64,000 nucleotides of DNA, from positions 249,390-313,389 of the forward strand of contig NZ_MPIN01000005.1 in NCBI RefSeq assembly GCF_001887355.1. Direction: 5' to 3'. The DNA is from Cystobacter ferrugineus. GTDB lineage: Bacteria; Myxococcota; Myxococcia; Myxococcales; Myxococcaceae. The position numbers and the translations under genes were made by a program. Of the stretch, positions 3,067 through 61,639 are shown piece by piece. The notes under the pieces were generated by a model. It did no database searches. It worked only from the letters and a program-made list of their open reading frames with translations, and was not told the DNA's origin. Within the stretch, counting starts at the first letter, position 1; each line of letters opens with the position of its first letter.

Positions 3067-4143
3067 ATGAGAGTGCAGCGGATGGTGGTCCCGCTCTCGC
3101 TCGCCCTGATGGGGCTGGGCGGTTGCAATCCCTATGAGCGGTGGACAGGTGACGAGTTCAACGCCGGTCCGGTGGATGCTCAAACCTTCCCGCCCGCGTA
3201 CCTGGGCACGGATGCCGTCCGCCAGCGCGCGGGCTCCGGCTTCTTCGCGGCTTCGTCCGCCTCGGTGGGAGGAGCGCAGGTCGAGTATTTCCTCTTCCCG
3301 TTCTCCACCACTCAGCTCGAGCTGGACGATCCACTGGCGGCGGCGAGTTCCAAGGAAGCGCCCAAGCCCAGCGCCTATGTGTTCAACAACGGCTGCAAGG
3401 CGCCCGAGGGCTACTCGTACGATCTCGCCCGCGACGCGGTCGACTACTCCCAGCAGGGGGTCATCTTCACCCAGCTCCCGAGCGCCACGTACGCCCCGGG
3501 CGTCGCCGCCACCTGGTCCTATGTGCCCATCGTCGCGCGCGTGCCAGTGACGCCCACGGACACCACCTGCCAGACCATCAAGAGCGAGACGGCCCTGGTC
3601 AAGCGCGCGGGGAATGAAGTGGGCGTGGTGCTCACCGACCCCGCGCCCGCCACGGGCAAGCAGGTCGGTGTGTCCGACGGCACCCTGCTGGCCCACGCCA
3701 TCATCGAGCCGGGCGCGGCCGTCTTCCACGCCGATGGGGAGACGCCGGCCACCGGCGTCGGCCTGCAGAAGTGGGGCTGGTACAACCAGTACCTCCTGGC
3801 CTACCTCGACGGCGGAGAGATTCCCACCGCGGGCGGCAGGTTGGTGACGCAGCGGCTGTTCGTTCCTCGCTCCGAGGTGACGCTGACGGATGCGCAGGGC
3901 AATACCAGCAACGAGGCGGTGGCCGCCGGCCAGGGCTTCGACGTGCTCACGGCCCAGCGTGGCCAGCCGGACTACTCCCCCGTGTGCGAGGTGTGGACCT
4001 ATGACGCCGGCGGTCCGCTCACCCCGGAGCAGTTGCCCAAGAGCGTCGCGGACATCGAGGCCAACTACAACGCCACCCTCGCGAAGCCGACCGCTGGAGA
4101 CCCCTACGTCTATTGCCTGCAACTCGACACGCGAGCCGAATAA
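3067..4143 (+). CDS. Outer-membrane lipoprotein paired with a TonB receptor
   Basis: A 358-residue protein. The ATG at 3067 is chosen over the upstream TTG (3013) because GGGAGG lies at 3055-3060 and the protein then begins with a clean lipoprotein signal (MRVQRMVVPLSLALMGLGGC, lipobox LGGC at residues 17-20). The mature part has no recognised domain. It is rich in Gly, Thr and Tyr, as expected of a secreted beta-rich protein, and has a few cysteines. It lies 24 bases upstream of the TonB-dependent receptor gene on the same strand, so the two are probably one operon. By analogy with receptor/lipoprotein pairs it may be a surface ligand-binding or lid-like partner; that role is inferred from context only. 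Confidence 0.8.
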   Translation: MRVQRMVVPLSLALMGLGGCNPYERWTGDEFNAGPVDAQTFPPAYLGTDAVRQRAGSGFFAASSASVGGAQVEYFLFPFSTTQLELDDPLAAASSKEAPKPSAYVFNNGCKAPEGYSYDLARDAVDYSQQGVIFTQLPSATYAPGVAATWSYVPIVARVPVTPTDTTCQTIKSETALVKRAGNEVGVVLTDPAPATGKQVGVSDGTLLAHAIIEPGAAVFHADGETPATGVGLQKWGWYNQYLLAYLDGGEIPTAGGRLVTQRLFVPRSEVTLTDAQGNTSNEAVAAGQGFDVLTAQRGQPDYSPVCEVWTYDAGGPLTPEQLPKSVADIEANYNATLAKPTAGDPYVYCLQLDTRAE

Positions 4144-4167
4144 CGCGAGCCCGGAAGACAAACGCAT

Positions 4168-30897: not shown

Positions 30898-33309
30898 ATG
30901 GTCCTCCTCATGGAGTCACACGGTGTCACGCCGCCCCCCAGGCTCGAGTACCTCCTCGAAGCCGCCACGGATGGAGTGCTGGCGCTCGATACCGAGGGGC
31001 GCGCCCTGTATCTCAACTCCAGCGCCGAGCGCATCCTCGGCCGGGCACGCGCCGAATTGCTCGGACACGCCCTGTGGTCACGGCTGCCCCGGCTGGAGGG
31101 CACGGAGTTCGGCCGGGCCTGCCAGCGCGCGCTCGTGCAGGGCATTCCCTCCACGGTGGAGGAGTACTTCGCCCCGCTGGGCGCCTGGGTGCAGGCGCGG
31201 GTGTCGCCCTCCCCGGAGGGAGTGCTCGTCTTCCTGCGCGACGTGACGCCGCTCAATCAGGTGGAGGCGGAGTACGCGAGCCTGCACGCGCTCGTGGCGA
31301 GCGCCCCCGCGGTGGCCTTCGTGACACGTGGGCCCGAGCACGTCTTCGTGCTCTCCAACGCGCGCCACCGCAAGCTCCAGGGGGGACGGGAGGTGCTGGG
31401 GCAGACGGCGCGCGAGGCCCTGCGCGAGCCCCAGGGCCAGAGCCTGCTGGAGGTGTTGGATCGCGTCTACCGCACCGGCATCCCGCTCGTGCTGGAGCAG
31501 GTGCCGCTGCCGGTGCAGAGCGACGAGGGCCCCTGGGAGGAGCGCCTCTTCCACCTCACCTGCCAGCCCCTGCGCGACGTGGCCGGGAACATCGAGGGCG
31601 TGACGGTGTTCGCCTTCGATGTGACGGAGCTGGTGCGCGCGCGCTGGCGGGCGGAGCGGCTGGCCGAGGAACTGAGCCTGAGCGAGGTGCGCTTCCGCTC
31701 GCTCGTGATGGCCACCTCCACCCTGCTGTGGACGACGGACGCCAGGGGCCACTTCCGCGAGGACTCCCCCACCTGGGGCGCCTTCACGGGACAGAGCTAC
31801 GAGCAATGGCGCAACGGCGCCGGGTGGTGGGACGCCATCCATCCCGAGGACCGGGATCGGGCCACGGCGGCGTGGCAGCGCGCCTTCGCCACGCGGGGCC
31901 TCTTCGAGGCGGAGTACCGGCTGCGCCGCGCCGATGGCACCTACACCCCGGTGGTGTCGCGCGGCGTGCCCGTGCTGGAGCTGGACGGCTCGGTGCGCGA
32001 GTGGGTGGGCTCCATCACCGACATCACCGCGCATCGCCGCGCGCGCCTGGCGCTCGAGCTGCTCACCGAGGCGAGCACCGCGCTGGCCTCCACGTGGGAG
32101 CTGCGCCCGGCCATGGAGCGCCTCACCCAGTGCCTGGTGCCCCGGCTCGCCGAGTGGTGCGGCGTGTTCCTGCACGACGAAGCGGGCCCGGGTGAGTGCC
32201 CTCGGACGAGCCCCGGAGAGCGCGTGGCCTTCAGCGACGTGGACCCGCGGCGTGCCCTGCGGCTGCACCAGGCGGGCCCGAGCGCTGGCGTGCCCATGTT
32301 GTTCCAGGGGACGTGGCCGCACGGGCGGGCGGAGTCCTTTCCCGCGCTCACCGAGCAGGCGCTCGCCGCGGAGCCGGACGCGGCCCGGCGGGAGCTGCTG
32401 CGAGCCTTCGTGGGCCTGCGGGGCATCGCCGTGCCCATCACCGTCAAGGGGCAGCACCGCGGCCTGCTGGTGCTCGCGGCGGGCGAGGGCTACCGGCCCT
32501 ACGACGCCGACGATCTCCAGCTCGCCGGGGAGCTGGCGCACCGGGCCGCCACCCTCCTGGAGCACCTGCGCCTCTTCGAGCTGGCACGCCAGGCGCGTGA
32601 CCGGGCCGAGGAGGCCAATCGCGCCAAGGACGAGTTCCTCGCCACCGTCAGCCACGAGTTGCGCACGCCGCTCACCGCCATCCTCGGGTGGACGAGCATC
32701 CTGCGCACCACGCCGCTGCCACCGGACAAACAGGAGCGCGCCCTGGAGACGGTGGAGCGCAGCGCGCGCGCCCAGGCGCAGATCGTGGATGATCTGCTGG
32801 ACATCTCCCGCATCGTCGCCGGACGGATGCGCCTGGAATTGCAGCCGGTGGATCCAGGCGCCGTGGTGGAGGCGGTGCTCGACGTGGTGCGTCCAGCCGC
32901 GGCCGCGCGCGACATCCACCTGGAGCCCCTGCTGGAGCCCAACGTGGGCCTCGTGCGAGGAGATGCCCAGCGGTTGCAACAGGTGGCGTGGAACCTGCTC
33001 ACCAACGCCATCAAGTTCACCCCGCCGGGAGGCCGGGTGACGGTGCGGCTGCGACGCGTGGAGGCGTGCGTGGAGTTGGAGGTGCGCGACTCCGGCCAGG
33101 GCATCTCCCCGACCTTCCTTCCCTACCTCTTCGAGCGCTTCCAGCAAGCCGATGGCAGCACCACCCGCCGCTACGGCGGGCTGGGCCTGGGGTTGTCCAT
33201 CGTGCGCCACCTGGTGGAGTTGCAGGGCGGCACCGTCCAGGCCCACAGCGCCGGCGAGGGCCAGGGCGCCTGCTTCACCGTCAGGCTGCCCGCCGCCCGC
33301 CTCTCCTGA
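30898..33309 (+). CDS. Multi-PAS/GAF sensor histidine kinase
   Basis: About 803 residues from the ATG at 30898 (an alternative ATG at 30910). Domains in order: PAS at ~10-115 (LEYLLEAATDGVLALDTEG), PAS-like at ~120-240, PAS with PAC at ~255-375 (GAGWWDAIHPEDRDRA), GAF at ~385-555, HisKA with phospho-acceptor His586 in TVSHELRTPLTAILGW, and a HATPase with N box NLLTNAIKFTPPGG, G1 DSGQGI and G2 YGGLGLGLSI. No transmembrane segment is seen, so it is a cytoplasmic sensor. It ends in RLPAARLS at a TGA that is overlapped by an ATG opening a broken receiver domain, suggesting it was once a hybrid kinase. Confidence 0.92.
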   Translation: MVLLMESHGVTPPPRLEYLLEAATDGVLALDTEGRALYLNSSAERILGRARAELLGHALWSRLPRLEGTEFGRACQRALVQGIPSTVEEYFAPLGAWVQARVSPSPEGVLVFLRDVTPLNQVEAEYASLHALVASAPAVAFVTRGPEHVFVLSNARHRKLQGGREVLGQTAREALREPQGQSLLEVLDRVYRTGIPLVLEQVPLPVQSDEGPWEERLFHLTCQPLRDVAGNIEGVTVFAFDVTELVRARWRAERLAEELSLSEVRFRSLVMATSTLLWTTDARGHFREDSPTWGAFTGQSYEQWRNGAGWWDAIHPEDRDRATAAWQRAFATRGLFEAEYRLRRADGTYTPVVSRGVPVLELDGSVREWVGSITDITAHRRARLALELLTEASTALASTWELRPAMERLTQCLVPRLAEWCGVFLHDEAGPGECPRTSPGERVAFSDVDPRRALRLHQAGPSAGVPMLFQGTWPHGRAESFPALTEQALAAEPDAARRELLRAFVGLRGIAVPITVKGQHRGLLVLAAGEGYRPYDADDLQLAGELAHRAATLLEHLRLFELARQARDRAEEANRAKDEFLATVSHELRTPLTAILGWTSILRTTPLPPDKQERALETVERSARAQAQIVDDLLDISRIVAGRMRLELQPVDPGAVVEAVLDVVRPAAAARDIHLEPLLEPNVGLVRGDAQRLQQVAWNLLTNAIKFTPPGGRVTVRLRRVEACVELEVRDSGQGISPTFLPYLFERFQQADGSTTRRYGGLGLGLSIVRHLVELQGGTVQAHSAGEGQGACFTVRLPAARLS

Positions 33310-33569
33310 TGGTGCGCCAATCGCCACCGGACGTGCTCGTCCCGGGCATCAGCAGGCCCGGCGTAAATGGCCATACACGCATGCGCCAGGTGCGTGCCCC
33401 TCCCGCTGCTCGAGGAGGACAGATTCCAGCCATCGCGCTCACCACGAACACCCAGGGTGAAAACCACGAGCGAGCCCTCGACTCGGGCTTCCAGGTGTAT
33501 GTGTCCAAACCGGTCGAGCCGCTCCACTTCCTTCACACACTGGCCGCTCTCGTCCGTGCGCCCCACTGA
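33309..33569 (+). pseudogene. Remnant of a response-regulator receiver domain
   Basis: An 86-codon frame opening with an ATG that overlaps the kinase stop (TGATG). It reads as the second half of a receiver domain: PPDVLVPGISRPGVNGHT corresponds to PDVLVSDIxMPGxDG, followed by IPAIALTTNTQGENHERALD and GFQVYVSKPVEPLHFLHTL (the conserved KP lysine-proline). The first half, with the acidic pocket, is missing, and the phospho-acceptor Asp position is Gly. This looks like a deletion that cut a hybrid kinase and left the tail out of frame. It might still be translated by coupling, but cannot accept phosphate. Confidence 0.6.
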
Positions 33570-33692
33570 TGTCCTGAGCCTCCAGGAATTCCAGACTCGC
33601 CAGGATGTCTGTTATTGTTTTTCCCAGAAGTTGTTAATTCATGTCTCCACGGTGGGTTCGCGGTAAAAATGCTGTCCGGCTGGAGAGGCGGT

Positions 33693-33721
33693 TTCCTTTC
33701 AACACTTCATCTGCGTATAAT
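33693..33721 (+). promoter_or_regulatory. Candidate promoter of the M4 protease operon
   Basis: A perfect TATAAT (33716-33721) lies 17 bases after a weak -35-like TTCCTT (33693-33698), in an AT-richer stretch of the 317-base gap 33570-33886. The protease start is about 165 bases downstream, leaving a long leader. Nothing else was recognised in the gap. Confidence 0.4.
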
Positions 33722-33886
33722 CACTCTCCACCGCGAATGAGGAAGGTCCAGGAGTTCCCGTCCCGACTGGAATCGGGTGGACCCTTCGCTTCGTGGTGTT
33801 CCAGGCAGATCCGGTCCAGGTGCTCGCGGATGGGCACCCGCCGGCCCCCTCCTCGATGCAGTCATTCAGTCCGGTGGAGTGAACCC

Positions 33887-36800
33887 ATGTCCATGCCGTG
33901 GCCTCGCTGGCCCCTGCTCCTCGCCTCGTTGGTGGCGGGGCCTTCCCTGGCGGCGGGCGAAAGACTCGCCTCCGTTTCCCAAACAACCCTGCTCCAGCTG
34001 CGCGCCCGTGAACCCTCGCGCGCGGCGGAGTCTCTCTCTCTGTTGAAGGCCCAGCGTGGGCAGCTCGGTCTGGGCGAGCGGAATGAGTTCCGCATGTCGA
34101 GCGTCCAGACGGACGGTTTTGGCCTCACGCATACCCGCTTCCAGCAGATGCACGAGGGCCTGCCGGTGTGGGGCGCCCAGGTCATCACCCATCTGGATTC
34201 GTCCGGCCGCGGTCTGACGGTGACGAAGGACAGCGTGCACCCGCACATCCGCGTGAGCACGAAGCCCGTGGTGGATTCGGCGAGCGCGGCGGCCCTGGCC
34301 CTGCTCGAAGTCCACCCGCTCGGCCTGCCCACGAGGCAGCCCTCCACCGAGCTCGTCATCTATCCCGAGGTGAAGCGGGTGCCCGCCGTCGCGGGCAAGC
34401 GCCGCGAGACGCTCAACGCGGTGGATCTCAAGGACGAGGTGGTGGGCTACCGCCTCGCCTGGCACGTGCACACCGTGCTGGACAACACCCAGGACGGCAT
34501 CAAGCACACCGACTTCCTGCTCGATGCCCGCTCGGGTAAGGTCCTCGAGCGGTGGAACTCGCTGGAGTCGGCGGCCACCGTGGGCACGGGCCTCTCGCAG
34601 TACCACGGCGAGGTGAAGCTCGACGTCTTCCAGAACGCCAAGGGCCTCTACGAGCTGCGCGACACGACGCGCACCTACGGCGAGGGCTTGCGCACCTACG
34701 ACGTCAATCACGCCGACATCTTGTACGGCGAGATCCCCAAGCCCGTGCTGTACGAGGACGCGGACAACGTCTGGGGTGACGGGCAGAACTACGATCCGGG
34801 CTCCGACACGCAGAGCGACAACGGCCAGACGGCGGCCGTGGACGCGCACTTCGGCGTGCAGGCGACGTGGGACTACTTCCAGAAGATCCACAATCGCTTT
34901 GGCATCGACAACGCGGGCACGCCGACCTTCAGCTACGTGCACGTCGGCAATGCCATGGACAACGCCTTCTGGGATGACGAGTGCTTCTGCATGAACTTCG
35001 GGGACGGCACCTTCCCGAGCGATCCGGATGGCTTCAAGTCCCTGGGCTCCATCGACGTGATGGCCCATGAGCTGACCCACGGCGTCAATGCCAAGACCGC
35101 CGACCTCATCTACAGCGGGGAGTCCGGAGGCCTGAACGAGGCCAACTCCGACATCTTCGGCGCCATGACGGAGTTCTGGCTGCGCAACGGCCGGGGCGAC
35201 ACCATCGGCGACGTGGGCGGCAACTGGACCATCAGCGAGGAGCTGAGCGTGGTGCCGCTGCGCTACATGTACAAGCCGAGCCTGGACGGCGTCAGCGAGG
35301 ACGCCTGGTCGCCCGGGCTCGCGTCGCTCGATCCCCACTACAACAGTGGCCCGATGAACCGCGCCTTCTACTTCCTGTCCCAGGGCGCGCTGTCGACGGC
35401 GACGAAGAATGACTACTCCAGCACGTACCTGCCCGATGGCATGGCGGGCATTGGCAACGACAAGGCGGCGGCCATCTGGTACCGCGCCCTCACCACCTAT
35501 CTGACCCCCTCCAGCAACTACGCGGCGGCCCGCACCGCCTCGCTCCTGTCGGCGGCGGACCTCCACGGCAGCGGCTCCGAGGAGTACCGCGCGGTGCAGA
35601 ACGCCTTCGCCGCCATCAACGTGGGCTACAGCGCGAGCACCTACGACGACTTCTCGCCGCCCACGGTGAGCGCGCTCGTCTCGGGCAGCGCGCCCCGGCT
35701 GCGGCTCACCGCGCGGGCCTGGGACAACGTGAACGTGTCGTACGTGGAGTTCTACGTGGACGACGTCCTCGTGAGCACCGCCGGCACGCAGCCCTTCGAG
35801 TTCACGCTGGACACCACCTCGCTCGACAATGGCACGCACCACCTGGTGACGAAGGCCTTCGACCTGGCCGGCAACGCCGGCACCTCCGCTCCCGTCAGCT
35901 TCACCGTGGCCAACAGCTTCACGCAGGTGATCGGCAACGCGGGATTCGAGCAGGGGGACGCCCCCTGGGTTCAGGAGCCCTCCGATCCCGGCTACCCCAT
36001 CATCAACTACCCGAGCACCCGGGCACGCACGGGCCAGGGCATGGCCTGGCTCAACGGCTACGGCAGCACGTCCGTGGATGTCCTGTCCCAGCAGCTCACC
36101 ATCCCCGCCGACGCCCAGACGGCTGCGCTGACCTTCTACCTCAACATCCTCACCGAGAGTTCCCCCGACGAGGCCCTGGACACCGTGGTGGTGGAGGTGC
36201 GCGACACCCAGGGTCAGCTCATCGAGGAGCTCGCGAAGTGGTCCAACGTGGACGCGACGGTCGGCTGGGCGCAGCGCAGCTTCGACCTGACCCGGTTCGC
36301 GGGCCAGACGGTGCAGCTGCGCATCGTGGGCAGCGAGAACGACGATGGCGAAATCACCGCCTTCTGGCTCGATGACTTCGCGCTGCGCGTCATCACGGGC
36401 CCCGACACCGAGGCGCCGTTCGTGACGGCCAGCGCCGAGGTCGACGACACGCTCGCCCAGGTGGGCCTGGCCGGCAATGTGTCGGACAACGGCTTCGTTG
36501 GAGCCGTCGAACTCATCCTGGACGGCACGTCGCTGGGCAGCGTGCCCACGTCGTTCACGAAGGTCCTGAGCACCAGCAGCGTGGGCGACGGCCGCCACAC
36601 GCTCGTGGTCAAGGCCACGGACGAGGCCGGCAACACGAGCACGTCGGAGCTGGTGTCGTTCTACCTCGACAGCAACCGCGGTCAGTTGGTGAGCAACCCG
36701 GACTTCGAGCTCCTCATCGATGGGTGGACCGTCAAGACGCCCTACCCGGGCTCGAACACGATCAACCTCTTCGGGCACTCGGGTTTCTTCTACTTCCGGT

Positions 36801-38110
36801 TCAGCAACACCCAGGGCCCCAACACGTCGAGTCTGTCTCAGTTCGTCGCGGTCCCCGCGGACACCGTGTCGGCCACCTACAGCTTCTGGCTGTGGGTGAC
36901 CAGCAATGCCTTCACCGACGGCGCGCCCCACCACACGTTCACCGCGAAGGTGCGCGACGCCAACGGCAACGACTTGCGGACCCTCGAGACGTTCTCGAAC
37001 GTGGACGCCTCGGACGATTACGCCGAGCACCGTTATGACCTGAGCGAGTTCAAGGGTCAGACGATCGAGCTGTTCTTCGAGTCCAACGTGGAGGAGGCGC
37101 CGCAGCAGCCGAACGGCAGGACGTACTTCGCGCTCGACGACGTCTACCTGGAGGTGTCGGGCACTCCGGACAGCCAGCCGCCCACGCTCAACGTGGGCGT
37201 CCAGGGCACCTCCGGGACGGTGCAGCTCTACGCCAACGTGTTCGACAACGTGTGGACGACGCAGCTCGAACTCTTCGTGGATGGCGCCCCGGTGGCCACC
37301 CTCACCAACCCCAACGGCGAGTACACGAGGCCGTTCGACACGTCCACGATCGGCAATGGCCAGCACGAGTTCACGGCCAAGGCCACGGACCAGGCGGGCA
37401 ACGTGCGCGAGGCCACGGTGACGTTCGAGGTGCACACGGTGAACGACGTGACCCCCCCGACCGTCAGCGCGGCCGTGTCGGGCGAGTACGAGACGACGGT
37501 GTTCACGGCCTCCGCCGCGGACGACACGGGCGTCACGGCCGTGGAGTTCTACGTGGATGGCGTCTTCCAGGGCAGCGTCCAGACGGCACCGTACCGGCTG
37601 CCCTTCAGCACCCTGCCCCTGACGCCCGGTGAGCACACCCTGAAGGTGGTGGCCCTCGATGCCTACGGGCACTCCGCCTCGGCCACAGCCACCTTCACGC
37701 GCGCCGGCCCGCTGCTGTCCTCCACGCGAGTCCTCGTGCCGGTGGACGGCACGTACGACCTGGGCACCCTGCTGGCCAACGGTGCGGATCCGCTGCTGCT
37801 CTGGAACGTACAGGAAGGCCGTGTCTGCGGAACCGTCTCCTGGACGGGCGTCTACACGGCGCCGGCCGCGCCCGGCCTCTGCCACGTGCTCATCACCAAC
37901 AAGCAGGACGCCCGCTCGAGCGCCAAGGTGGACGTGCGCGTCTACACCGCGGACCTCAACGGGGATCGTGTCGTGGACGGTGAGGACATGGCACGCCTTG
38001 CCCAGACCTGGGGCACCCGCGTTTCCTCCACGACGACCGCGGACCTCGACGCGAGTGGCTCCGTGGACGACTCCGACGTCACCCTCTTCGTCAGCCAGTT
38101 CGGACGGTAA
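33887..38110 (+). CDS. Secreted M4 (thermolysin-type) metalloprotease with C-terminal dockerin-like module
   Basis: A 1407-residue protein; the ATG at 33887 gives signal peptide MSMPWPRWPLLLASLVAGPS. A fungalysin/thermolysin propeptide region at ~40-230 precedes the catalytic domain with zinc motif HELTH at 394-398 and the third-ligand motif GGLNEANSDIFG. Residues ~590-1340 hold several bacterial Ig-like and jelly-roll modules (repeated SYVEFYVDDVLV / AVEFYVDGVFQG words). The last ~52 residues (1356-1407) contain two EF-hand-type loops, DLNGDRVVDGED and DLDASGSVDDSD, spaced 30 residues apart. This is the arrangement of a type I dockerin. The next gene starts 3 bases later and carries a cohesin-like module. 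Confidence 0.9.
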   Translation: MSMPWPRWPLLLASLVAGPSLAAGERLASVSQTTLLQLRAREPSRAAESLSLLKAQRGQLGLGERNEFRMSSVQTDGFGLTHTRFQQMHEGLPVWGAQVITHLDSSGRGLTVTKDSVHPHIRVSTKPVVDSASAAALALLEVHPLGLPTRQPSTELVIYPEVKRVPAVAGKRRETLNAVDLKDEVVGYRLAWHVHTVLDNTQDGIKHTDFLLDARSGKVLERWNSLESAATVGTGLSQYHGEVKLDVFQNAKGLYELRDTTRTYGEGLRTYDVNHADILYGEIPKPVLYEDADNVWGDGQNYDPGSDTQSDNGQTAAVDAHFGVQATWDYFQKIHNRFGIDNAGTPTFSYVHVGNAMDNAFWDDECFCMNFGDGTFPSDPDGFKSLGSIDVMAHELTHGVNAKTADLIYSGESGGLNEANSDIFGAMTEFWLRNGRGDTIGDVGGNWTISEELSVVPLRYMYKPSLDGVSEDAWSPGLASLDPHYNSGPMNRAFYFLSQGALSTATKNDYSSTYLPDGMAGIGNDKAAAIWYRALTTYLTPSSNYAAARTASLLSAADLHGSGSEEYRAVQNAFAAINVGYSASTYDDFSPPTVSALVSGSAPRLRLTARAWDNVNVSYVEFYVDDVLVSTAGTQPFEFTLDTTSLDNGTHHLVTKAFDLAGNAGTSAPVSFTVANSFTQVIGNAGFEQGDAPWVQEPSDPGYPIINYPSTRARTGQGMAWLNGYGSTSVDVLSQQLTIPADAQTAALTFYLNILTESSPDEALDTVVVEVRDTQGQLIEELAKWSNVDATVGWAQRSFDLTRFAGQTVQLRIVGSENDDGEITAFWLDDFALRVITGPDTEAPFVTASAEVDDTLAQVGLAGNVSDNGFVGAVELILDGTSLGSVPTSFTKVLSTSSVGDGRHTLVVKATDEAGNTSTSELVSFYLDSNRGQLVSNPDFELLIDGWTVKTPYPGSNTINLFGHSGFFYFRFSNTQGPNTSSLSQFVAVPADTVSATYSFWLWVTSNAFTDGAPHHTFTAKVRDANGNDLRTLETFSNVDASDDYAEHRYDLSEFKGQTIELFFESNVEEAPQQPNGRTYFALDDVYLEVSGTPDSQPPTLNVGVQGTSGTVQLYANVFDNVWTTQLELFVDGAPVATLTNPNGEYTRPFDTSTIGNGQHEFTAKATDQAGNVREATVTFEVHTVNDVTPPTVSAAVSGEYETTVFTASAADDTGVTAVEFYVDGVFQGSVQTAPYRLPFSTLPLTPGEHTLKVVALDAYGHSASATATFTRAGPLLSSTRVLVPVDGTYDLGTLLANGADPLLLWNVQEGRVCGTVSWTGVYTAPAAPGLCHVLITNKQDARSSAKVDVRVYTADLNGDRVVDGEDMARLAQTWGTRVSSTTTADLDASGSVDDSDVTLFVSQFGR

Positions 38111-38113
38111 CCC

Positions 38114-39409
38114 ATGAAAACGTTGACCAAGCTCATTGTTCCGCTGCTGCTCGGAGCGCTCGCCGCGTGCGGTGACAAGCCCACGCCCGGCACGGGGCCC
38201 GTGACCGTCTCGCCCAAGAGCATCACCGTGAAGGCCGGAGAGTCCACGACCCTCACCGCCTCCGTCGAGGGTACCCAGGAGCCGAAGATCCTCTGGAGCG
38301 TGGAGGGCGAGGACTCGGGCACCATCACCAGCACGGGCGTCTACACCGCGCCCGCAAAGGCCGGCACCTTCACCGTGGTGGCCACCAACGCGCTGGACAC
38401 CACCCAGAAGGACACCGCCGAGGTCACCGTCACCCCGGTCATCCACGTCACCCTCACGCCGACGTCCGCCACGGTGCTCACCGGCGGCAGCATCACCTTC
38501 ACCGCCGAGGTGACGGGGGCCACGGACACCTCGGTCACCTGGTCCATCCAGGAGGGTGACGCGGGCGGCACCATCACCAGCGCGGGCGTCTACACCGCGC
38601 CCGCGCAGGCCGGCACCTTCACCGTGGTGGCCACCAGCGTGGCGGATCCCACGAAGAAGGCCGAGGCCCAGGTGACGGTGAGCGCGATCATCGTCGAGGT
38701 GTCTCCCGGAACGGCGACGAGCCCGCAGGGTGGCACCACGAAGTTCACCGCGACCGTCAAGGGCTCCGACAACCAGGCCGTGTCGTGGAGCGTGGAGGGC
38801 GAGACCTCGGGCACCATCACCAGCGCGGGTGTCTACACGGCGCCTTCGCGTCCGGGCACCTTCACCGTGGTGGCCACCAGCGTGGCGGACCCCACGAAGA
38901 AGGGCACCGCCACCGTCACCGTGCCGGCCGCCCAGTCCGGTGGCTACACCAACCCCCCGAACACGGACGGCTGGAGGCTCGTGAAGAACACGAGCGCCTC
39001 CTCGGGCAACCACCTCGTGCTGGATCTGCTCGGCCCCACGGGCCAGTCCGGCCGCGGCGTGGCCCTGACGCTCTCCGTGGACGCGGCCCGGGCGGGCTGG
39101 GCCAAGGTGTCCCCATCTGACACCGAGTACGTCGCCAACGGGCTGTTCTCGCTCGGTGACGAGCCGCGGCTCCTCAAGGGCGCCGCCAAGGACGGCACGC
39201 TGCGGGTGGGCGTGTTCCAGAAGGGCACGAGCGGCCCGGCCACCGCGTACGCCGGTGCGCTGGTTTCGGTGGCGGTGGATGTGAAGCTCGATCCCTCGCT
39301 GCCCGCCGGCACGCGCATCCCCCTGTCCGTCGTCAAGGCCCAGGCCCTGACGGCGACGGGAGACCTGCGCACCATCGACGTCGCCGTGGGCGTGCTCGCC
39401 ACCGAGTAG
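38114..39409 (+). CDS. Ig-repeat lipoprotein with cohesin-like C-terminal domain
   Basis: A 431-residue protein with a lipoprotein signal (LLLGALAACG, Cys19). Three bacterial Ig-like repeats of ~82 residues span ~26-280; each contains TITSxGVYTAPxxxGTFTVV. The last ~140 residues are a different beta domain: GRGVALTLSVD, then GTLRVGVFQKG, then VAVDVKLDPSLPAGTRIPLS and ATGDLRTIDVAVGVL. That order of strands and the G-T-x-I-x-L...DGDL-like ending resembles cohesin domains. The gene follows the dockerin-bearing protease by 3 bases and is closed by a strong hairpin. It is probably a surface anchor for the protease; the cohesin call needs structural confirmation. Confidence 0.75.
   Translation: MKTLTKLIVPLLLGALAACGDKPTPGTGPVTVSPKSITVKAGESTTLTASVEGTQEPKILWSVEGEDSGTITSTGVYTAPAKAGTFTVVATNALDTTQKDTAEVTVTPVIHVTLTPTSATVLTGGSITFTAEVTGATDTSVTWSIQEGDAGGTITSAGVYTAPAQAGTFTVVATSVADPTKKAEAQVTVSAIIVEVSPGTATSPQGGTTKFTATVKGSDNQAVSWSVEGETSGTITSAGVYTAPSRPGTFTVVATSVADPTKKGTATVTVPAAQSGGYTNPPNTDGWRLVKNTSASSGNHLVLDLLGPTGQSGRGVALTLSVDAARAGWAKVSPSDTEYVANGLFSLGDEPRLLKGAAKDGTLRVGVFQKGTSGPATAYAGALVSVAVDVKLDPSLPAGTRIPLSVVKAQALTATGDLRTIDVAVGVLATE
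38318..38903 (+). repeat. Three direct repeats encoding Ig-like domain ends
   Basis: Near-identical DNA blocks of about 80-95 bases begin at 38318, 38567 and 38810 (spacing 249 and 243). All encode GTITSxGVYTAPxxxGTFTVVAT. They arise from tandem duplication of the Ig domain. The last two copies are the closest to each other. Confidence 0.85.
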
Positions 39410-39435
39410 TCCCAGGCGGCCTGTTGGCTGTCGCG

Positions 39436-39467
39436 ACGGCGGTCCTCTCCATCGGGGGGACCGCCGT
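39436..39467 (+). terminator. Terminator of the protease/cohesin-like operon
   Basis: A perfect 10-bp G+C-rich stem (39436-39445 with 39458-39467) and a 12-base loop, followed by a T-containing stretch, 27 bases after the stop of the cohesin-like lipoprotein gene. Confidence 0.75.
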
Positions 39468-39579
39468 TGTCGTTCGCGGGTGCCAGGAGACCGGGTGGCA
39501 CGAGGGGGCCTGGAATCGGCGCGGACCCTATGACTTCCGGCACATGTCCCCGCCAGGACAAACATATAACATGGAGGAG

Positions 39580-39594
39580 GCACGATTATCGTGC
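39580..39594. promoter_or_regulatory. 15-base palindrome upstream of the CARDB lipoprotein
   Basis: A perfect inverted repeat, GCACGAT-T-ATCGTGC, lies 125 bases before the ATG at 39719, just after a TATAAC (39565-39570). It is in an AT-rich part of the 309-base gap 39410-39718. Its size and symmetry fit an operator for a dimeric regulator; no regulator gene is nearby. Confidence 0.35.
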
Positions 39595-39718
39595 GTGTTC
39601 ATGTTCTGGCTTGTCTTTGCCCGTGAATGAATAGCCTTTTGTCATGCGCGTCTGGTGTGACGCGGCTCGACCTGACTGGAAGCCGCGCCTTCCCCTCCTG
39701 GAAAGGGAGCGAACACCA

Positions 39719-40618
39719 ATGAACGAACACAGGATGAAAGCGGGCCTGAGTGCCCTCGCGTTGATGGCCCTCGTGGGATGCCAACCTCCAGAGCCCACCG
39801 AAAGCAGTGAGAGGGAGGCCGCAAGACTTCAGCGCTCCATGGAAACCGGCAACCATCCCGACTTCGTCATCACCTCGGTGACGGGTCCCACCATCGTGGA
39901 GCCCGGACAACCCATCACCGCCCAGGTGACCGTGTGCAACCAGGGCAACGAGTCCGATTATGCTCACGTGCTCGTCCTCCTGTCCGAGGACCAGCAGTTC
40001 GACATCCCCTCGCGCTACGGGCCTCCCGAGGACGCCGTCGTGGGCTCCCCGGCGGGAACCTGGGTCTCCCAGGGAACGTGCTCCACGCTGTCCATCTCTG
40101 GACATGTCCCCCCGACGATCCCGCTCGACACGGGCACCCTTTACCTGGGCGCCGCGCTGGATCCCTCCAACACCTCCGAGATCATCACGGACAACAACAC
40201 GCACCCGGGCTACGAGCTGAGAGTGGCGGCCGGAGCGGACTTCGTCATCACCTCGGTGACAGGCCCCGCCAGCGTGGCGCCCTGGCAGCCCTTCACCGCC
40301 CAGGTGAATGTGTGCAACCAGGGCACCCGGACCACGAGCACCCAAGTGATGCTGCTCCTGTCCGAGGATGAGCACCTCTCGGTGCCCTATTCGGGGCCTA
40401 TCGAGGACTCCCTCGCGGGTAGGGCGCCGGTGGCGCCGCTCGCGCCGGGTCAGTGCACCACCGTGTCCGTCTACTGTGTTGCCGCGCGTCCTCCGGCAAG
40501 CCCGCCCGACACGAATGCCTTCCTCCTGGGCGCCGTGGTGGACCCGGAGGGCTCCACCCCGGAGCTCCTCGAGGACAACAACACCCTGCTCGGCGGGTGG
40601 ATCTCCTTCACCCCCTGA
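39719..40618 (+). CDS. Lipoprotein with two CARDB domains
   Basis: A 299-residue protein. The ATG at 39719 is preceded by AAAGGGAG and starts a lipoprotein signal (LSALALMALVGC). The mature protein is two CARDB (cell-adhesion-related beta) modules of ~120 residues. Both begin DFVITSVTGP and contain QVTVCNQG or QVNVCNQG, and both close with an EIITDNNT/ELLEDNNT asparagine turn. A 23-base identical DNA word marks the start of both repeats, showing recent duplication. It is probably an outer-membrane adhesion or binding protein. It is separated from the protease operon by a terminator. Confidence 0.85.
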   Translation: MNEHRMKAGLSALALMALVGCQPPEPTESSEREAARLQRSMETGNHPDFVITSVTGPTIVEPGQPITAQVTVCNQGNESDYAHVLVLLSEDQQFDIPSRYGPPEDAVVGSPAGTWVSQGTCSTLSISGHVPPTIPLDTGTLYLGAALDPSNTSEIITDNNTHPGYELRVAAGADFVITSVTGPASVAPWQPFTAQVNVCNQGTRTTSTQVMLLLSEDEHLSVPYSGPIEDSLAGRAPVAPLAPGQCTTVSVYCVAARPPASPPDTNAFLLGAVVDPEGSTPELLEDNNTLLGGWISFTP

Positions 40619-54953: not shown

Positions 54954-57554
54954 ATGAAAAACAGAAAATTTTATACCTTGGGTGTAATGCCTGAACGCTC
55001 CCTCGCCGTCGTGCTGGCGCTCGCCGCCAACACACTGACGTTGGGCGCGGCCTCGGCGCAGGCCGAGCCGCCCGAGCAGATCGTCAACGGCACCTTCGGC
55101 TCCGGCCACGCGCCGTGGTGGGGCACCAGCAACATCACGCTCGACTCCAGCAGCGGCGAGCTCTGCGCCGACATCCCCGGGGGGAGCGTGAACCCCTGGG
55201 ATGTGATCATCGGCCAGGACAACGTCTCGCTCATCGCGGGCGAGACGTACCGTTACAGCTTCGTGGCGACCGCGACGTCTGACTTCACGGGCAAGGCGCT
55301 GATCCAGCTCCCCGCCGACCCGTGGACGCAGTACCTGGCCGTCTATCCACAGATGACCGCGCAGGCCAACACCTACACCTATACCTTCACCTCGCCGGTG
55401 AGCCTGCCCAACGCGCAGGTGGCCTTCCAGATGGGCGGCAGTGCCACGCCGTGGCGCTTCTGTGTCGACAATGTGTCCCTCAAGGGGGGCGCCCCGCCGG
55501 ATGTCTACAAGCCGGACACCGGTCCCCGGGTCCGGGTGAACCAGGTGGGCTACCTCACCCACGGCCCGAAGAACGCGACCGTCGTCACCGAGGCCACGAC
55601 CGCGCTGCCGTGGCAGCTCGTCAACGGCTCCGGCACGGTGGTGGCGAGTGGTCTGAGCACGCCTCGCGGCGTGGACGTCAGCTCCGGACAGAACGTGCAC
55701 TCCATCGACTTCAGCGGGTACACCGAGGCCGGAGCCGGATACACCCTGGTCACCGACGGTGAGACCAGCCGCCCGTTCGACCTCGGGGGCAACCTCTACG
55801 CGCAACTGCGCGATGACGCCTTGAAGTTCTACTACCCGCAGCGCAGCGGCATCGAGATCCTCGACAGCCTGAGGCCGGGCTATGGCCGTCCCGCCGGTCA
55901 CGTGGGGGTCGCGCCGAACACCGGTGACACGGCCGTGCCGTGCCAGCCGGGAGTCTGTGATTACACGCTCAACGTGGCCAATGGCTGGTACGACGCGGGC
56001 GACCATGGAAAGTACGTGGTCAACGGCGGCATCTCGGTCTTCCAGCTCATGAGTGCTTTCGAGCGGGCCAAATACACCCCGGCCGCGCAGCCGTTCACGG
56101 ATGGTCAGCTCGCCATTCCGGAGAGCGGAAATGGCGTACCGGACATCCTCGACGAGGCGCGCTGGGAGATGGAGTTCCTGCTCAGCATGCAGGTGCCCGC
56201 GGGCAAGCCGCTGGCTGGCATGGTCCACCACAAGGTGCACGATGATTCATGGACCGGCCTGCCCCTGCTGCCCCACCTGGACCCCAAGCAGCGCGAGCTG
56301 CACCCGCCGTCGACGGCGGCGACGCTCAACCTCGCCGCGGCCGCGGCGCAAGCGGCGCGCCTGTTCGCCCCGTATGATCCGGCCTTCGCGCAGCGGAGTC
56401 TGACGGCGGCACGCACGGCGTGGGCCGGGGCGGTCGCCCACCCGGCGATCTACGCCAGCGTGTCCGACAACGTCGGCGGGGGCGCGTACGAGGACTTCGA
56501 TGTCCGGGACGAGTTCTACTGGGCCGCCGCGGAGCTCTTCCTGACCACCGGTGAGGCACCGTTCCGTGACTTCGTGCTGGGTTCGCCGCTGCACACCGCC
56601 GACATCTGGACCGAGCAGGGCATCAACTGGCGAGAGGTCGCCGCGCTGGCACGAATGGACCTGGCGTTGGTGCCGAGCAGCCTGCCGGACCGTGCCGCCG
56701 TGCGGCAGTCCGTCGTGGCGGGCGCCACGAAGTACCTGAACACGCTCAACGCGCATCCGTACGGGCTGCCCTACGCGCCCGCCGACAACATGTTCGCCTG
56801 GGGCTCCAGCAGCCAGGTGCTCAACAACATGGTCGTCATGGCGGCCGCGTACGACATCACCGGCGAGAAACGCTTCGCCAACGGCGTCGCGCAGGGCATG
56901 GACTACATCCTGGGCCGCAATGCCCTGAACATCTCCTACGTCACCGGCCACGGCGAGGTGAGCGCACAGAATCAGCACAGCCGCTGGTATGCGCACCAGC
57001 TCAACCCAGCGCTGCCCCGCCCACCCCGGGGCACCCTGTCGGGAGGACCGAACTCATACATCCAGGATCCCATCGCCCAGCAGAAGCTGACGGGCTGTGT
57101 GGCCCAGTTCTGCTACATCGACGACATCGAGTCCTATGCCACGAACGAGCTGACCATCAACTGGAACGCCCCATTGGCATGGATCGCCGCGTTCCTCGCC
57201 GGGCAGGGTGACGGAGCGGCTACCCCCGCCGCCTCGTGCCAGGTCAGCTACGTCAAACAGGACGAGTGGAGCGATGGCTTCAACGTCCAGGTCATCCTCC
57301 GCAATACCGGCGCCAGCGCCATCAACGACTGGACCCTGCGCTGGTCGTTCCTGGGTGGACAGACCGTCACCCAGGCGTGGAGCGTGAACGCCAGTCAGTC
57401 CGGAGCCACGGTCAGCGCGACCCACCTGCCCTGGAACGCCCGAATCCCACCTGGCGGCTCGGTGTCGTTCGGCTTCACCGGAGCCCTGGCCTCGGGGCCC
57501 AATCCCAACCCGGCGCTGTTCACCTTGAATGGCGCCGCCTGCCTCGTCCGGTGA
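54954..57554 (+). CDS. GH9 endoglucanase with CBM4/9 and CBM2 modules
   Basis: An 866-residue secreted cellulase. A signal peptide (1-37, or from Met12 if 54987 is the start) is followed by a CBM4/9-like jelly roll at ~40-180 ([14 protein letters not shown]), the CelD-type Ig domain at ~190-280 ([16 protein letters not shown]) and a GH9 catalytic domain at ~285-750. Catalytic-base aspartates are in [11 protein letters not shown] (Asp347, Asp350). The C-terminal GH9 signatures [16 protein letters not shown] and [16 protein letters not shown] (acid Glu732) are intact. A CBM2 cellulose-binding module ends the protein ([19 protein letters not shown]). The start codon area lacks a Shine-Dalgarno sequence. 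It suggests cellulose or beta-glucan degradation. Confidence 0.95.
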
Positions 57555-57632: not shown

Positions 57633-60600
57633 TCACTGAGGCCCGGGACCCTCGCACTCCCGGATGGTGGCGCCCCGACTCTCGAGGTACTTGGCAATCC
57701 TCCGTCCCTCGGGGCTTTTGCGGTCGCGTGCCTCCCGCAGGGGGCTCGAACAGTCGGGACCATCGGCGTTGACGTCCGCGCCGTGCTCCACGAGGAGTTC
57801 AACGATGGCCAGCTTCGATTCGGGAACCGCCGTGTGGAGGAGCAGGGGATTGAGCGGCAGGTCACCATCCGCACCCAGGCGAACGAGGAGCAGGCGCAGC
57901 AATTCGAGGTCGTTCTCCCTCGTTGCGTGGCTCAGGAGCGTGCTTCGGGCATCCCCATCGAGGCGCTCGGGGCGGCTCAGCACGAAATGCCGAAGGATCC
58001 CCATCAGGTGTGACTCTTCCAGGCGATAGGCAAGCGCGCTGGAGGGAACACCACCGTGGATGGCAAGCTGTCTGGCGAGAGACCAGTCCTCTGCCTTCAC
58101 CAGCATGTCGAGTGCCCGGGCCTTCGGGTCGGAGGCGTTGAGCTGGATGAGGAGTTCCGCTCCCCACCGCCAGCCATACTGGAGCGCGTAGGAGAGGGCT
58201 GTGTCGTCGTTGTTTCCCTCTTCGTGGGGGTTGCCCCCCTGGGCGATGAGCCGTGCGGCGGCATCGGAGGCTCCGAGCCGCATCGCCATCAGCAGCAGCT
58301 CGTCAGGGTCCTTCGCGTCGTCGAGAGCGCCGTCCAGGGCGATGCGATCAAGCAACTCCCTCGCCACGTCGTGAAGGTCAGCGTGAAGAGCGTGCCACAC
58401 GTACGTCAGCTTGTCCTCCCTGGCGGGTATGGCCCGGACCCCCAGGCGCAGGAGCACCCACGGGGCCCTGTGGGCCGAACGCCTCAGGGCATTTTCGAGC
58501 ACGTTCAATCCGTCCCCATCAAGCGCGTTGAGCTCCACGCCTCGTCCGACGAGGAGTTCCAGCGCACGGGTATCGCGACATTCGGCGAGTCTGGCGATGA
58601 CCTCACGTGACCTGCTCTTGATGTCCTCTGGCGACAGACGCTCGAGGAGGACCTCGAAGATGGGGAGGCGCTCGCACAAGACCGCGGCGGAGTGCGCCAT
58701 CACCTGGAGGATGTCCTTCTGTGTCCACGCGGGCTCTTGCAGCAGGACGCGCAATTGCTCGAACTGCTCGGGCTGCGTCCTGGGCCGGGTCCAGATGCCA
58801 TCCATGATCTGCTGTGGCCGGGTGTGGTCGAGAAACCAGGAGATCCAGGCGGGAGAGGGCTGGGCGCCACGCCGGATCAACAGCCGCGCGATGTCGAACC
58901 GGGCCTTGCGCACCGCGACGCTGAAGGGGTCCCAATAGGAGTCGCCACTCGAGTCACTTCCCGCATCGGCACCGGTCGCGGCCGACCTGGTCTTGAAGTC
59001 CGGCCAGGCGCCGTGATCGAGCAGGTAGCTGGCCATCGCCTCGGTACTCACTTCGGCCAGCAGCAACCCGCCATTGGGGGCGGAGCCCTTCGGATCGGCG
59101 CCTGCCTCGATGTAGCCGCGGACGAGTTCCAACTGCCCCCCCCGAATCGCCGGCACCAGATAGCTCGGATCGGTCTGGATGGAGGCCCATCGCTGGGGGT
59201 GCTTCGCCGCGAGCACACCGAGGGCCTTCTCGAGCCCGCCGGCGAGCATCAGCACCACCGCCGTCTCTCCCTCCTCCGGCTTCCACATGGGGTCCGCGCC
59301 GCGCTCGAGCAACAGCGCCGCCACCTCGGAGTGCCCAGCCGTGGCGGCGACCTGAAGCGCCCGTTCCATCACCTGAGCTGGAACCAGCGGAGCCCCCCCC
59401 TCGAGAAGCAGTTCGACACTCGCCCGCGCGCCATTCCTGGCGGCGGTGAGGAGCAATTCCCCACGCATCTCGTCCCTCGGGACGCCAGACAGGGAGAGGA
59501 GGTGGCGCAGAAGCTTGGCCTGGTTGTGGCGCGCGGCGAGCCCAAGCAATTGGACAGGACCCTTTGGAGGGGGCTCCTTCCAGCGCTCCACGAGTTTCAG
59601 CGCCAGTTCCTCCTCGCCCGCGTTGATGGCCGCGCGGGTGGCCTTCTCCCAGCACCGGGATTTTCCCTCGACCGGCGCGCTGCGCTCTAGCAGGAGTTCG
59701 GTGACCTCCACCTGCTCCTCACACAACGCGAGCGAGAGCGCGGTATTGCCGTGCTGATTCTGGAAGCCGAGGTTCGCTCCGGCATCGAGGAGCGCGCGCA
59801 CCGCGGGGACATTCCCCCGGAGTGTGGCGGCCATCACTGGGGTGAGCTCTTGTTTCTCGTCACCCAGGGTGCCGGTCGCGGAGAGGTTGAGGTCCGCCCC
59901 GGCCTGAACGAGCCGGCGGATCGCGGCCGCATCCCCGACGGAGGCGGCGTCATGGAGCGCCGTCGCACCGCGCGCGTCGCGGACGTTGACGTCCGGGTGG
60001 AGTTCCAGCAGCGCCCCGAGGACGGAGCCGTTGGAAGACAGGGCGGCGTAGTGCAGCAACGAGCGGCCCTGGGCATCCGCCGCGATCGCCTTCAGCTCGG
60101 CCTCGGTCGCGGACGAGAGAGGCTCTCCTCGCAGCACGCTCCAATGAAGGGGAGTCGGCGGGCCACTGCTCGCCAGGGCCGCGGGGGTGGCCCCCTCGCG
60201 CAGGAGGGCCGGAAACTCGGCGAGCCGTCCTTCCGCCCAGGCCTCGCGCAACCGGGCATTGAGAGAGGCACGGGAGAGCACCTCACGCATCTGCTCACCG
60301 AAAACCACACGAGGCATCACCGAGCCGGTGACCGCTCCCTGGGCAACGAGTCGCTGGGCCACGGCGACATGGCCCTCCTGGACGGCGATATCGAAGGCGG
60401 AGAGTTCCGAACCGTTGATGCTCGCCCGGGCATGCACGTCGAAGCTTCTCGAGATGAGCCAGGCCGTGCTCTCTTCCGCGCCCGCGAGCGCGGCCCAGTG
60501 CAGCGGCGAGAGGCGCTGCTCCTCGTGCAGCCGCTCGAGCAGTTGCGCGTCCTTCTCCGCGAGGGCCTCGAGCTTCGCGGGCGAGTTCTCGATGGCCGCG

Positions 60601-61406
60601 AGGTGGAAGGGGGTGAGTTGGAGCAGCTTCTCGGTCCGCGCGTCGGTCGCGCCCTGGCGCACGAGCGCTGCGACACGCGAGAGGTATCCCGTGTCCACCG
60701 CCCAGCGCAACAAGAAGCGCCGGTGGGCCTGCTCCAACTGGGGACGGAGCTTCTCGGGAGCCTCGGCGATGAGCTTGCGCCGGGAGAGCACCGCGCCCTT
60801 TTCCAGCAGAAGGGACACCACCTCGTTGTGGCTGCCCTCGAGTGCGAGATTGAGCGCGGAGCGAAGCCCAGCGTCCTCCGCGTTCACCGAGGCCCCCCGT
60901 TCGAGCAGGTGCGCCACCATGTCCGCGCGCCCTCTCTCGGCCGCGAGCATGAGTGGAGTGCGATCCGCTCGGTTGCGCGGATCGACAACACCATCCGCGT
61001 CGAGCAGCACATCCACTGTTCTGGGCTCGGCGGCGAGGGCGGCGTAGTGGAGGAGCCCCATTCCCAGCGAATCCGAGGGCGGGATTCGTGCCGGGTCCTT
61101 CAACAGAGCGGCGAGCTGCTTGCGATCATTGCGGAGGACCGCGACATGGGCCTCGGTGAGCCCGAGCTCTTTTACCCGCGCCTCATCCGCCTGGGCCACG
61201 AGCGCCTTCAGTGCCTCGGCATCTCCGCTCGCGAGCGCGGCTCGTACGAGAGAATGACCACTCGGCTCACCCGGCTTCGTGTCCGCCACGGATGTCGTGG
61301 AGCCCGCCTGCACCTTGGCGGGCTTGTCCGAATCGTCGACAGCGCGGGGGCTCTCGCCCTTGCACGAGAGCAGCACCACCACGGCCATGATAGGCCATGC
61401 ACGCAT
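57633..61406 (-). CDS. Large ankyrin-repeat lipoprotein
   Basis: About 1257 residues from the ATG at 61406, which places a lipoprotein signal at the very N-terminus (MRAWPIMAVVVLLSC); an ATG at 61457 would add 17 residues. Nearly the whole mature protein is ankyrin repeats: TPLMLAAERGRADMVAHLLE, ATALHDAASVGDAAAIRRLV, NTALSLALCEEQVEVTELLL and many more. A less regular central part includes long insertions (DAGSDSSGDSYWDPF). Ankyrin arrays bind proteins. A lipoprotein of this size is unusual and probably sits in the periplasm or on the outer membrane. No partner gene is obvious; the neighbour on the other side is another solenoid protein, transcribed divergently. Confidence 0.85.
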   Translation of the reverse strand: MRAWPIMAVVVLLSCKGESPRAVDDSDKPAKVQAGSTTSVADTKPGEPSGHSLVRAALASGDAEALKALVAQADEARVKELGLTEAHVAVLRNDRKQLAALLKDPARIPPSDSLGMGLLHYAALAAEPRTVDVLLDADGVVDPRNRADRTPLMLAAERGRADMVAHLLERGASVNAEDAGLRSALNLALEGSHNEVVSLLLEKGAVLSRRKLIAEAPEKLRPQLEQAHRRFLLRWAVDTGYLSRVAALVRQGATDARTEKLLQLTPFHLAAIENSPAKLEALAEKDAQLLERLHEEQRLSPLHWAALAGAEESTAWLISRSFDVHARASINGSELSAFDIAVQEGHVAVAQRLVAQGAVTGSVMPRVVFGEQMREVLSRASLNARLREAWAEGRLAEFPALLREGATPAALASSGPPTPLHWSVLRGEPLSSATEAELKAIAADAQGRSLLHYAALSSNGSVLGALLELHPDVNVRDARGATALHDAASVGDAAAIRRLVQAGADLNLSATGTLGDEKQELTPVMAATLRGNVPAVRALLDAGANLGFQNQHGNTALSLALCEEQVEVTELLLERSAPVEGKSRCWEKATRAAINAGEEELALKLVERWKEPPPKGPVQLLGLAARHNQAKLLRHLLSLSGVPRDEMRGELLLTAARNGARASVELLLEGGAPLVPAQVMERALQVAATAGHSEVAALLLERGADPMWKPEEGETAVVLMLAGGLEKALGVLAAKHPQRWASIQTDPSYLVPAIRGGQLELVRGYIEAGADPKGSAPNGGLLLAEVSTEAMASYLLDHGAWPDFKTRSAATGADAGSDSSGDSYWDPFSVAVRKARFDIARLLIRRGAQPSPAWISWFLDHTRPQQIMDGIWTRPRTQPEQFEQLRVLLQEPAWTQKDILQVMAHSAAVLCERLPIFEVLLERLSPEDIKSRSREVIARLAECRDTRALELLVGRGVELNALDGDGLNVLENALRRSAHRAPWVLLRLGVRAIPAREDKLTYVWHALHADLHDVARELLDRIALDGALDDAKDPDELLLMAMRLGASDAAARLIAQGGNPHEEGNNDDTALSYALQYGWRWGAELLIQLNASDPKARALDMLVKAEDWSLARQLAIHGGVPSSALAYRLEESHLMGILRHFVLSRPERLDGDARSTLLSHATRENDLELLRLLLVRLGADGDLPLNPLLLHTAVPESKLAIVELLVEHGADVNADGPDCSSPLREARDRKSPEGRRIAKYLESRGATIRECEGPGPQ

Positions 61407-61639
61407 GTCGGCCCACCGATGAGCCACGGAGCGAAACGGGTTTGATGGAAGCGACATAATGACTTCGTACCCCAGGTTCTCCCCTTGATGCAGGGGGGGC
61501 CCCTCCGACGCGCGCCCTTGCCCACCCGTCCCGGAGAGTCCCATGTTTTGAGCGAGCAATCGCTCCGGACGCCGCCCTCCCCTGGCCCATCGGGCCTCGG
61601 CGCTATAGGAAGGCTGGGTCATCCTTCGATGGCACGAAG

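Follow-up and report, generated by a model that had tools for sequence, protein, structure and literature searches.

The present analysis concerns two adjoining genes on the plus strand of a 64,000-nucleotide stretch of the Cystobacter ferrugineus genome (contig NZ_MPIN01000005.1, positions 249,390 to 313,389), hereafter the window, whose numbering is used throughout. The first gene (33887..38110) encodes a secreted M4 metalloprotease of 1407 amino acids (aa), in which Pfam models outline a propeptide, Big_7, MAM-like and immunoglobulin (Ig) modules and a C-terminal dockerin. The second gene (38114..39409) encodes a lipoprotein of 431 aa, recognised from its open reading frame (ORF), a lipobox and three Big_2 matches. 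The original prediction had described a lipoprotein with three Ig repeats 3 bases downstream of the protease. The ORFs, the lipobox LAAC and three Pfam Big_2 stretches bear this out, and 3 bases indeed separate the protease stop from the lipoprotein ORF. The two proteins probably form a dedicated one-to-one dockerin-cohesin tether, in which one enzyme is held by one anchor on a stalk of variable length.

The protease starts with a probable signal peptide (MSMPWPRWPLLLASLVAGPSLAA; 33887..33955), recognised by inspecting the translation by eye. Pfam matches were obtained to PF07504, PF01447, PF02868, PF17957 (four copies), PF20773 and PF00404, the names of which include M4, M4_C, FTP and Big_7. 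The M4 catalytic and helical domains (residues 233-579; 34583..35623) contain the HELTHG zinc motif (35066-35083) and the NEANSD motif (35135-35152). The dockerin occupies residues 1355-1400 (37949..38086) and was assigned from PF00404, dockerins in the PDB and the positions of its loops. A Dockerin_1 motif consists of two calcium loops of 12 residues, with D, N or S at positions 1, 3, 5, 9 and 12. Both loops of the protease tail, DLNGDRVVDGED (residues 1356-1367; 37952-37987) and DLDASGSVDDSD (residues 1386-1397; 38042-38077), fit this motif and fall in the final 52 residues. The original prediction had placed two dockerin-type loops at exactly these residues and proposed a Pfam check of the tail. 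When isolated, the tail passes the Dockerin_1 model PF00404 (27.9 bits against a cut-off of 22.9, E=2.8e-6), while the full-length protease scores 22.2 bits, just below the cut-off.

Further support for the dockerin came from its relatives. A profile built from 27 tails (A2) found the solved dockerin 2y3n_B as its top PDB match (E=1.4e-7), and D17, D21, D25 and D28 are invariant across the 27 rows of its alignment. PF00404 matches 24 of these 27 tails at E<=1, and 16 of the 30 tails of a mixed set (A7) at E<=0.1. The Ig module preceding the dockerin (protease residues ~1275-1352) resembles the stalk repeats of the lipoprotein, with 35.8% over 81 aa to the one in locus L041, so both partners share a module.

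The lipobox LAAC of the lipoprotein lies at residues 16-19 (38159-38170). It is followed by a stalk of three Big_2-type Ig repeats (PF02368), which start at 38201, 38447 and 38693 and span 38201..38938, the end being approximate. In the read-through model described below, this stalk block has a predicted local distance difference test score (pLDDT) of 82-93. The last 155 residues (277-431; 38942..39406) form the domain of interest, which matches no Pfam model at all and was delimited with AlphaFold2, Foldseek, the VIA structure comparison and conservation. An AlphaFold2 run on this domain with 13 relatives gave a model with a pLDDT of 81.4 and a predicted template modelling score (pTM) of 0.78. 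Against the PDB, Foldseek returned 47 matches at E<=0.001, all of them cohesins or cohesin/scaffoldin complexes by title except 2o4e. The title of 2o4e refers to an interaction module from a glycoside hydrolase of C. perfringens, and we take this module to be a cohesin as well. In the VIA comparison, rows 1 to 47 are of the same kind, the best being 4uyp_A (Z 10.7, 129 aligned residues, 3.0 A), and the first non-cohesin appears at rank 48 with a Z of 8.0. A second model, a read-through of the stop that joins the whole lipoprotein and the dockerin, was compared by VIA only; Ig rows took up the list, and cohesins were matched over residues 342-490 with Z up to 10.1.

The C-terminal domain of the lipoprotein is thus clearly a cohesin fold by predicted structure, not by sequence. 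The claim that the lipoprotein ends in a cohesin holds for the fold predicted by AlphaFold2 and compared by Foldseek and VIA; it does not extend to a match with the Pfam cohesin model. An ordinary Ig or carbohydrate-binding module (CBM) fold had been named beforehand as the outcome that would speak against docking. The 47 significant Foldseek matches were cohesins instead.

Relatives of the gene pair were sought in 145 genomes of the order; the window itself lies on contig C5 of the 12-Mb genome G000. The relatives include Corallococcus, Myxococcus, Pyxidicoccus and Citreicoccus, of the Myxococcales (confirmed for one of them). The C-terminal domain was detected in 27 of the 145 genomes with the single sequence (E<=0.001) and in 44 with a profile (A1, E<=0.01). 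A protease homologue lies immediately upstream in all 23 M4-type loci (L038-L060), its start being cut in L057 and L060. In the fetched loci taken together, 73 rows of cohesin-like ORFs were collected, of which 72 are distinct after dropping L209, a repeat of part of L166. These loci come from 46 genomes, and 67 of the 72 ORFs have their own dockerin gene next to them on the same strand, a proportion that is partly circular for a reason given below. The dockerin gene is upstream in 66 of the 67 pairs and downstream in one. In that sole reversed pair (L157), the cohesin gene comes first and overlaps the dockerin gene behind it. In all pairs but one, the two open frames either overlap or are no more than 10 bases apart. 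A start with a lipobox was located by a pattern search in 53 of the 67 pairs, where it lies -4 to +38 bases from the stop of the dockerin gene, and by visual inspection in another 10. The length of the stalk varies widely (stop-to-stop ORFs of 239 to 2161 aa) and the ends are conserved, which makes the stalk look like a spacer.

Five cohesin-like ORFs have no dockerin gene of their own: L062 5017-6441, L167, L207, L208 and L166 13535-14470. Those of L167 and L207 sit at contig starts, and that of L208 has a stop inside the match. Conversely, dockerins with no cohesin in the locus were found in L205 (5300-6142) and L177/L211, all at contig ends, and in L171 and L172. Locus L205 (G008:C389) carries two tandem dockerin genes before one cohesin gene, the first being cut by the contig end. 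The dockerin-like tails of L171 (6966-8105, minus strand) and L172 (6279-7217, plus strand) belong to a VWA protein and to another protein, respectively, with no cohesin-like gene nearby. The metagenome-assembled genome (MAG) G092 holds further, shorter pairs that have no Ig repeats. A separate scan of contigs gave 12 loci. Nine are from named myxobacteria, among them Corallococcus interemptor and Myxococcus dinghuensis, which carry the pair; two are on contigs of a single Myxococcaceae MAG, and the last is a weak match in Gemmata. No relatives were found in a scan of viral contigs, and the cohesin profile had no match in the other 50 genomes of the phylum outside the order.

The M4 protease is not the only carrier of the dockerin. 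By motif, 25 of the 67 pairs have a carrier with the M4 zinc motif, 40 have a BNR-type carrier and two are unassigned (L060, truncated, and L061, which lacks the zinc motif). M4-type pairs occur in 24 genomes, BNR-type pairs in 24 and both types in three. The second class was reached from weaker profile matches, namely cohesin lipoproteins adjoining a BNR/Sortilin-like protein with a dockerin-like tail, whose second calcium loop looks degenerate. Seven BNR-type carriers were scanned; each of them has a BNR or Sortilin-Vps10 match at E<=0.01, and three exceed a Pfam cut-off. The dockerin plug and the cohesin socket thus travel together with different cargo, M4 proteases in 25 pairs and BNR-type proteins in 40. 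The cohesin fold, together with the neighbouring genes found across the order and with a different carrier protein, supports the reading of the two genes as a docking pair.

The occurrence of the two modules across genomes points in the same direction. Strong dockerins (E<1e-10) were found in 45 of the 145 genomes (44 by the A7 search and G092 by A2), strong cohesins in 46 and both in 45. In the 46th cohesin genome, G123, the cohesin ORF is that of L167. The numbers of dockerins and cohesins agree in most genomes, e.g., four of each in G104 and three of each in G094, G109 and G042. By these profiles, the present genome has one dockerin and one cohesin. Weak matches comprise five to A7 (G091, G128, G136, G013 and G014) and one to the cohesin profile (G083). 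Searched with PF00404, the present genome gives seven matches, one over the cut-off and six further ones all under it.

In the proposed tether, the protease would be exported and processed, and its C-terminal calcium-binding dockerin would plug, calcium-dependently, into the C-terminal cohesin of the lipoprotein. The lipidated cysteine would hold the lipoprotein in the membrane, and the stalk of Ig repeats would lift the cohesin and set the distance of the protease from the envelope. The protease would then stay with the cell or its vesicles and not diffuse away. In relatives, the same two end-modules would form a pair with a BNR/Sortilin-like protein. The individual parts of this model differ in strength. 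Binding of the dockerin to the neighbouring cohesin is very likely. A position of the lipoprotein at the outer-membrane surface is somewhat favoured. In M. xanthus, lysine is found at position +2 in 8 of 12 inner-membrane lipoproteins and alanine at +7 in 7 of 10 matrix lipoproteins (PMC3222651). The present lipoprotein has glycine at +2 and proline at +7 after the cysteine. It therefore lacks the inner-membrane and matrix marks given there (PMC3222651), which weakly suggests the outer membrane as the likeliest place. Retention of the protease is, to a similar degree, the preferred function, and a role in predation or in the matrix can be put forward only tentatively.

Several observations weigh against this tether. 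Some bear on the two modules. The Pfam cohesin PF00963 matches neither the lipoprotein domain nor members of its family (0/30 and 0/32, with E<=1 for the 32). Compared by hhalign with six Myxococcota cohesins that Pfam does recognise (a small alignment), the domain gave a probability of 0.3%, and profile searches of the PDB with it returned no cohesin. No cohesin was found in an NCBIfam search of the domain either; in a phmmer search of the PDB, 10uy_A ('Cohesin domain number 4') ranked second, at E=0.11 only. In the read-through model, the dockerin has a pLDDT of about 47, and this model, being a single chain, gives no interface.

Other such observations concern the arrangement of the genes and the nature of the carriers. 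The pair of L166 is 825 bases apart. In L062 (G092:C144), the cohesin ORF at 5017-6441 precedes a dockerin protease which is itself followed by a second cohesin; the order in this locus is a regulator-like ORF, cohesin, dockerin protease, cohesin and protease (cut). Four of the seven scanned BNR-type carriers stay under every Pfam cut-off. Moreover, among the 30 carriers that lack the M4 motif and have the N-terminus in view, four BNR-type ones (L139, L163, L164 and L165) look like lipoproteins. With a carrier that has its own apparent lipobox, both partners would be membrane-anchored and a second anchor would be unneeded, which fits a simple tether poorly. In L061, a protease homologue (3809-6475, minus strand) has a dockerin and a cohesin partner and no HExxH zinc motif. 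It sits beside a copy that has the motif, and judging from its sequence it is probably inactive and kept in the same docking arrangement.

The counts themselves also have to be read with care. As the broad dockerin profile A7 draws on the cohesin neighbours themselves, the adjacency in 67 of 72 cases is partly circular. The genome-wide occurrence given above and profile A2 are less affected by this. Profile A2 was trained on M4-type and G092 tails; outside its training loci, it has 15 matches in the 145 genomes, of which 12 adjoin a cohesin-like ORF, two do not (L171 and L172) and one is at a contig end. The numbers of dockerins and cohesins disagree in G008, G010, G011, G012 and G092. A mirror-tree comparison of distances over the 67 pairs gave r=0.90 (0.94 within M4-type and 0.82 within BNR-type pairs), the highest value in 2000 permutations being 0.16; as it is confounded by linkage and common descent, it is not used as proof.

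Three other explanations were considered next to the tether. The lipoprotein might be a helper in export or folding, i.e., a chaperone, pilotin or temporary inhibitor, which would hold the protease by its dockerin in the periplasm and release it on secretion. The tight coupling of the genes, with the lipoprotein start only a few bases from the dockerin stop, is in line with such a helper, the lipoprotein may sit in another membrane or on another side than the tether supposes, and some carriers are themselves lipoproteins. However, conserved ends joined by a stalk of widely varying length (ORFs of 239 to 2161 aa) are better explained by a spacer than by a chaperone, and the cohesin fold is a docking fold. 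A helper of this kind is therefore considered unlikely. Less probable still is that dockerin and cohesin are both real and have other partners, the protease binding another surface protein or cell and the lipoprotein another dockerin protein. Dockerins can indeed occur apart, as seen in the VWA protein of L171 and in L172, which have no cohesin neighbour, and the six sub-cut-off Dockerin_1 matches in the present genome could be read in this sense. Against such a scheme stand the single dockerin and single cohesin of this type in that genome, the co-occurrence in 45 of 45 genomes and the matching numbers in most of them.

The least probable explanation, which we regard as very improbable, is that the C-terminal domain is an ordinary Ig module or CBM, that the EF-hand tail only stabilises the protease and that the adjacency is merely that of an operon. 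The missing Pfam match and the absence of any hhalign relation to Pfam cohesins would agree with it. Nonetheless, the significant Foldseek matches are cohesins, 47 rows precede the first non-cohesin in the VIA list, and the tail and the domain remain together even in pairs whose two proteins differ everywhere else. By the matches of the predicted structure, this explanation is for the most part refuted.

The tether has counterparts among known systems. As in the type I and II cohesin-dockerin pairs of clostridial cellulosomes (PDB 2y3n, 4u3s, 6kgc and 5nrm), a calcium-binding dockerin with a duplicated loop lies at the C-terminus of an enzyme, and a cohesin beta-sandwich is placed on a non-catalytic anchor. 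In contrast to these systems, each anchor bears a single cohesin, each cohesin has a single carrier next to it, and the anchor is a Gram-negative lipid anchor; the cargo is a protease or a BNR-type protein, and the cohesin has no sequence match to PF00963. Cellulosomes are built on a multi-cohesin scaffoldin with a cellulose-binding module, which receives many dockerin enzymes. No such scaffoldin was found here. A cellulosome was rejected as an explanation of the locus; in the present genome, a cohesin and a dockerin of this type occur once each, and a search of that genome with PF00963 gave no match. A GH9 cellulase with CBM_2 and CBM_4_9 is encoded in the window (54954-57554, plus strand), and none of the seven PF00404 matches lies on it. 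Cohesin folds outside cellulosomes are known from C. perfringens (2jh2, 2vo8 and 2w1n) and Archaeoglobus (2xdh), and these were among the structure matches. By their PDB titles, the C. perfringens modules are on secreted glycoside hydrolases, whereas the cohesin described here is on a separate lipoprotein beside the dockerin gene. The cohesins of SdbA, OlpA, OlpC and ScaE, also among the structure matches, anchor dockerin proteins to the cell. These four are Gram-positive wall anchors, whereas the anchor of the present system is a lipidated cysteine.

As for the surroundings of the pair, the idea that one terminator closes both genes was not upheld. A scan of 33300-39700 found no hairpin followed by a T run on the plus strand. 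Only a GC-rich hairpin that lacks a T run follows the operon (39433..39470, plus strand, ends approximate); it was found by RNA folding and not called by the terminator scan. The fold of 39410-39500 has an energy of -53.1 kcal/mol (z -2.6). Directly after the pair, a lipoprotein with CARDB repeats is encoded at 39644-40618 (plus strand). As a third part of the system it was dropped, no homologue having been found in the fetched loci at E<=1e-8. For the histidine kinase encoded upstream of the pair, strong matches were obtained in five loci, and the upstream sequence is short in some others. An open frame of 1905 aa runs antisense to the operon (33866-39583, minus strand) and is most likely an artefact of the high GC content. 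Further away, the window encodes a protein of 1329 aa that consists largely of ankyrin repeats (57633-61622, minus strand).

The pairing of cohesins with dockerins is already known, also outside cellulosomes. Among the open-licence papers covered by our searches, judged by title and abstract, we found no description of a myxobacterial dockerin-cohesin pair and none of a Gram-negative family of private, gene-paired sockets that Pfam does not recognise. The present domains may well represent an undescribed, sequence-divergent family of myxobacterial cohesins, although we put this forward with less assurance than the tether itself. Its members would be the private partners of neighbouring dockerin proteins and form insulated sockets for one enzyme and one anchor on Gram-negative surfaces. 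Their stalks would vary freely, their cargo would be swapped between proteases and BNR-type proteins, and binding would be pair-specific in genomes with several pairs. Pfam does not see the domain, so hypothetical lipoprotein may well be the annotation that such proteins carry. This suggests a wider spread of cohesin-like docking in Gram-negative bacteria than sequence searches reveal. Plugs and sockets that occur as natural pairs, and that may be orthogonal, would moreover serve well in surface display.

Secreted enzymes allow myxobacteria to digest other cells, and to our knowledge it is not settled how such enzymes stay with the producing cell. With a socket dedicated to one protease, this question would become directly testable through one small gene. 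The plug-and-socket gene pairs in many relatives suggest that a single enzyme can be kept at the cell surface by simple means.

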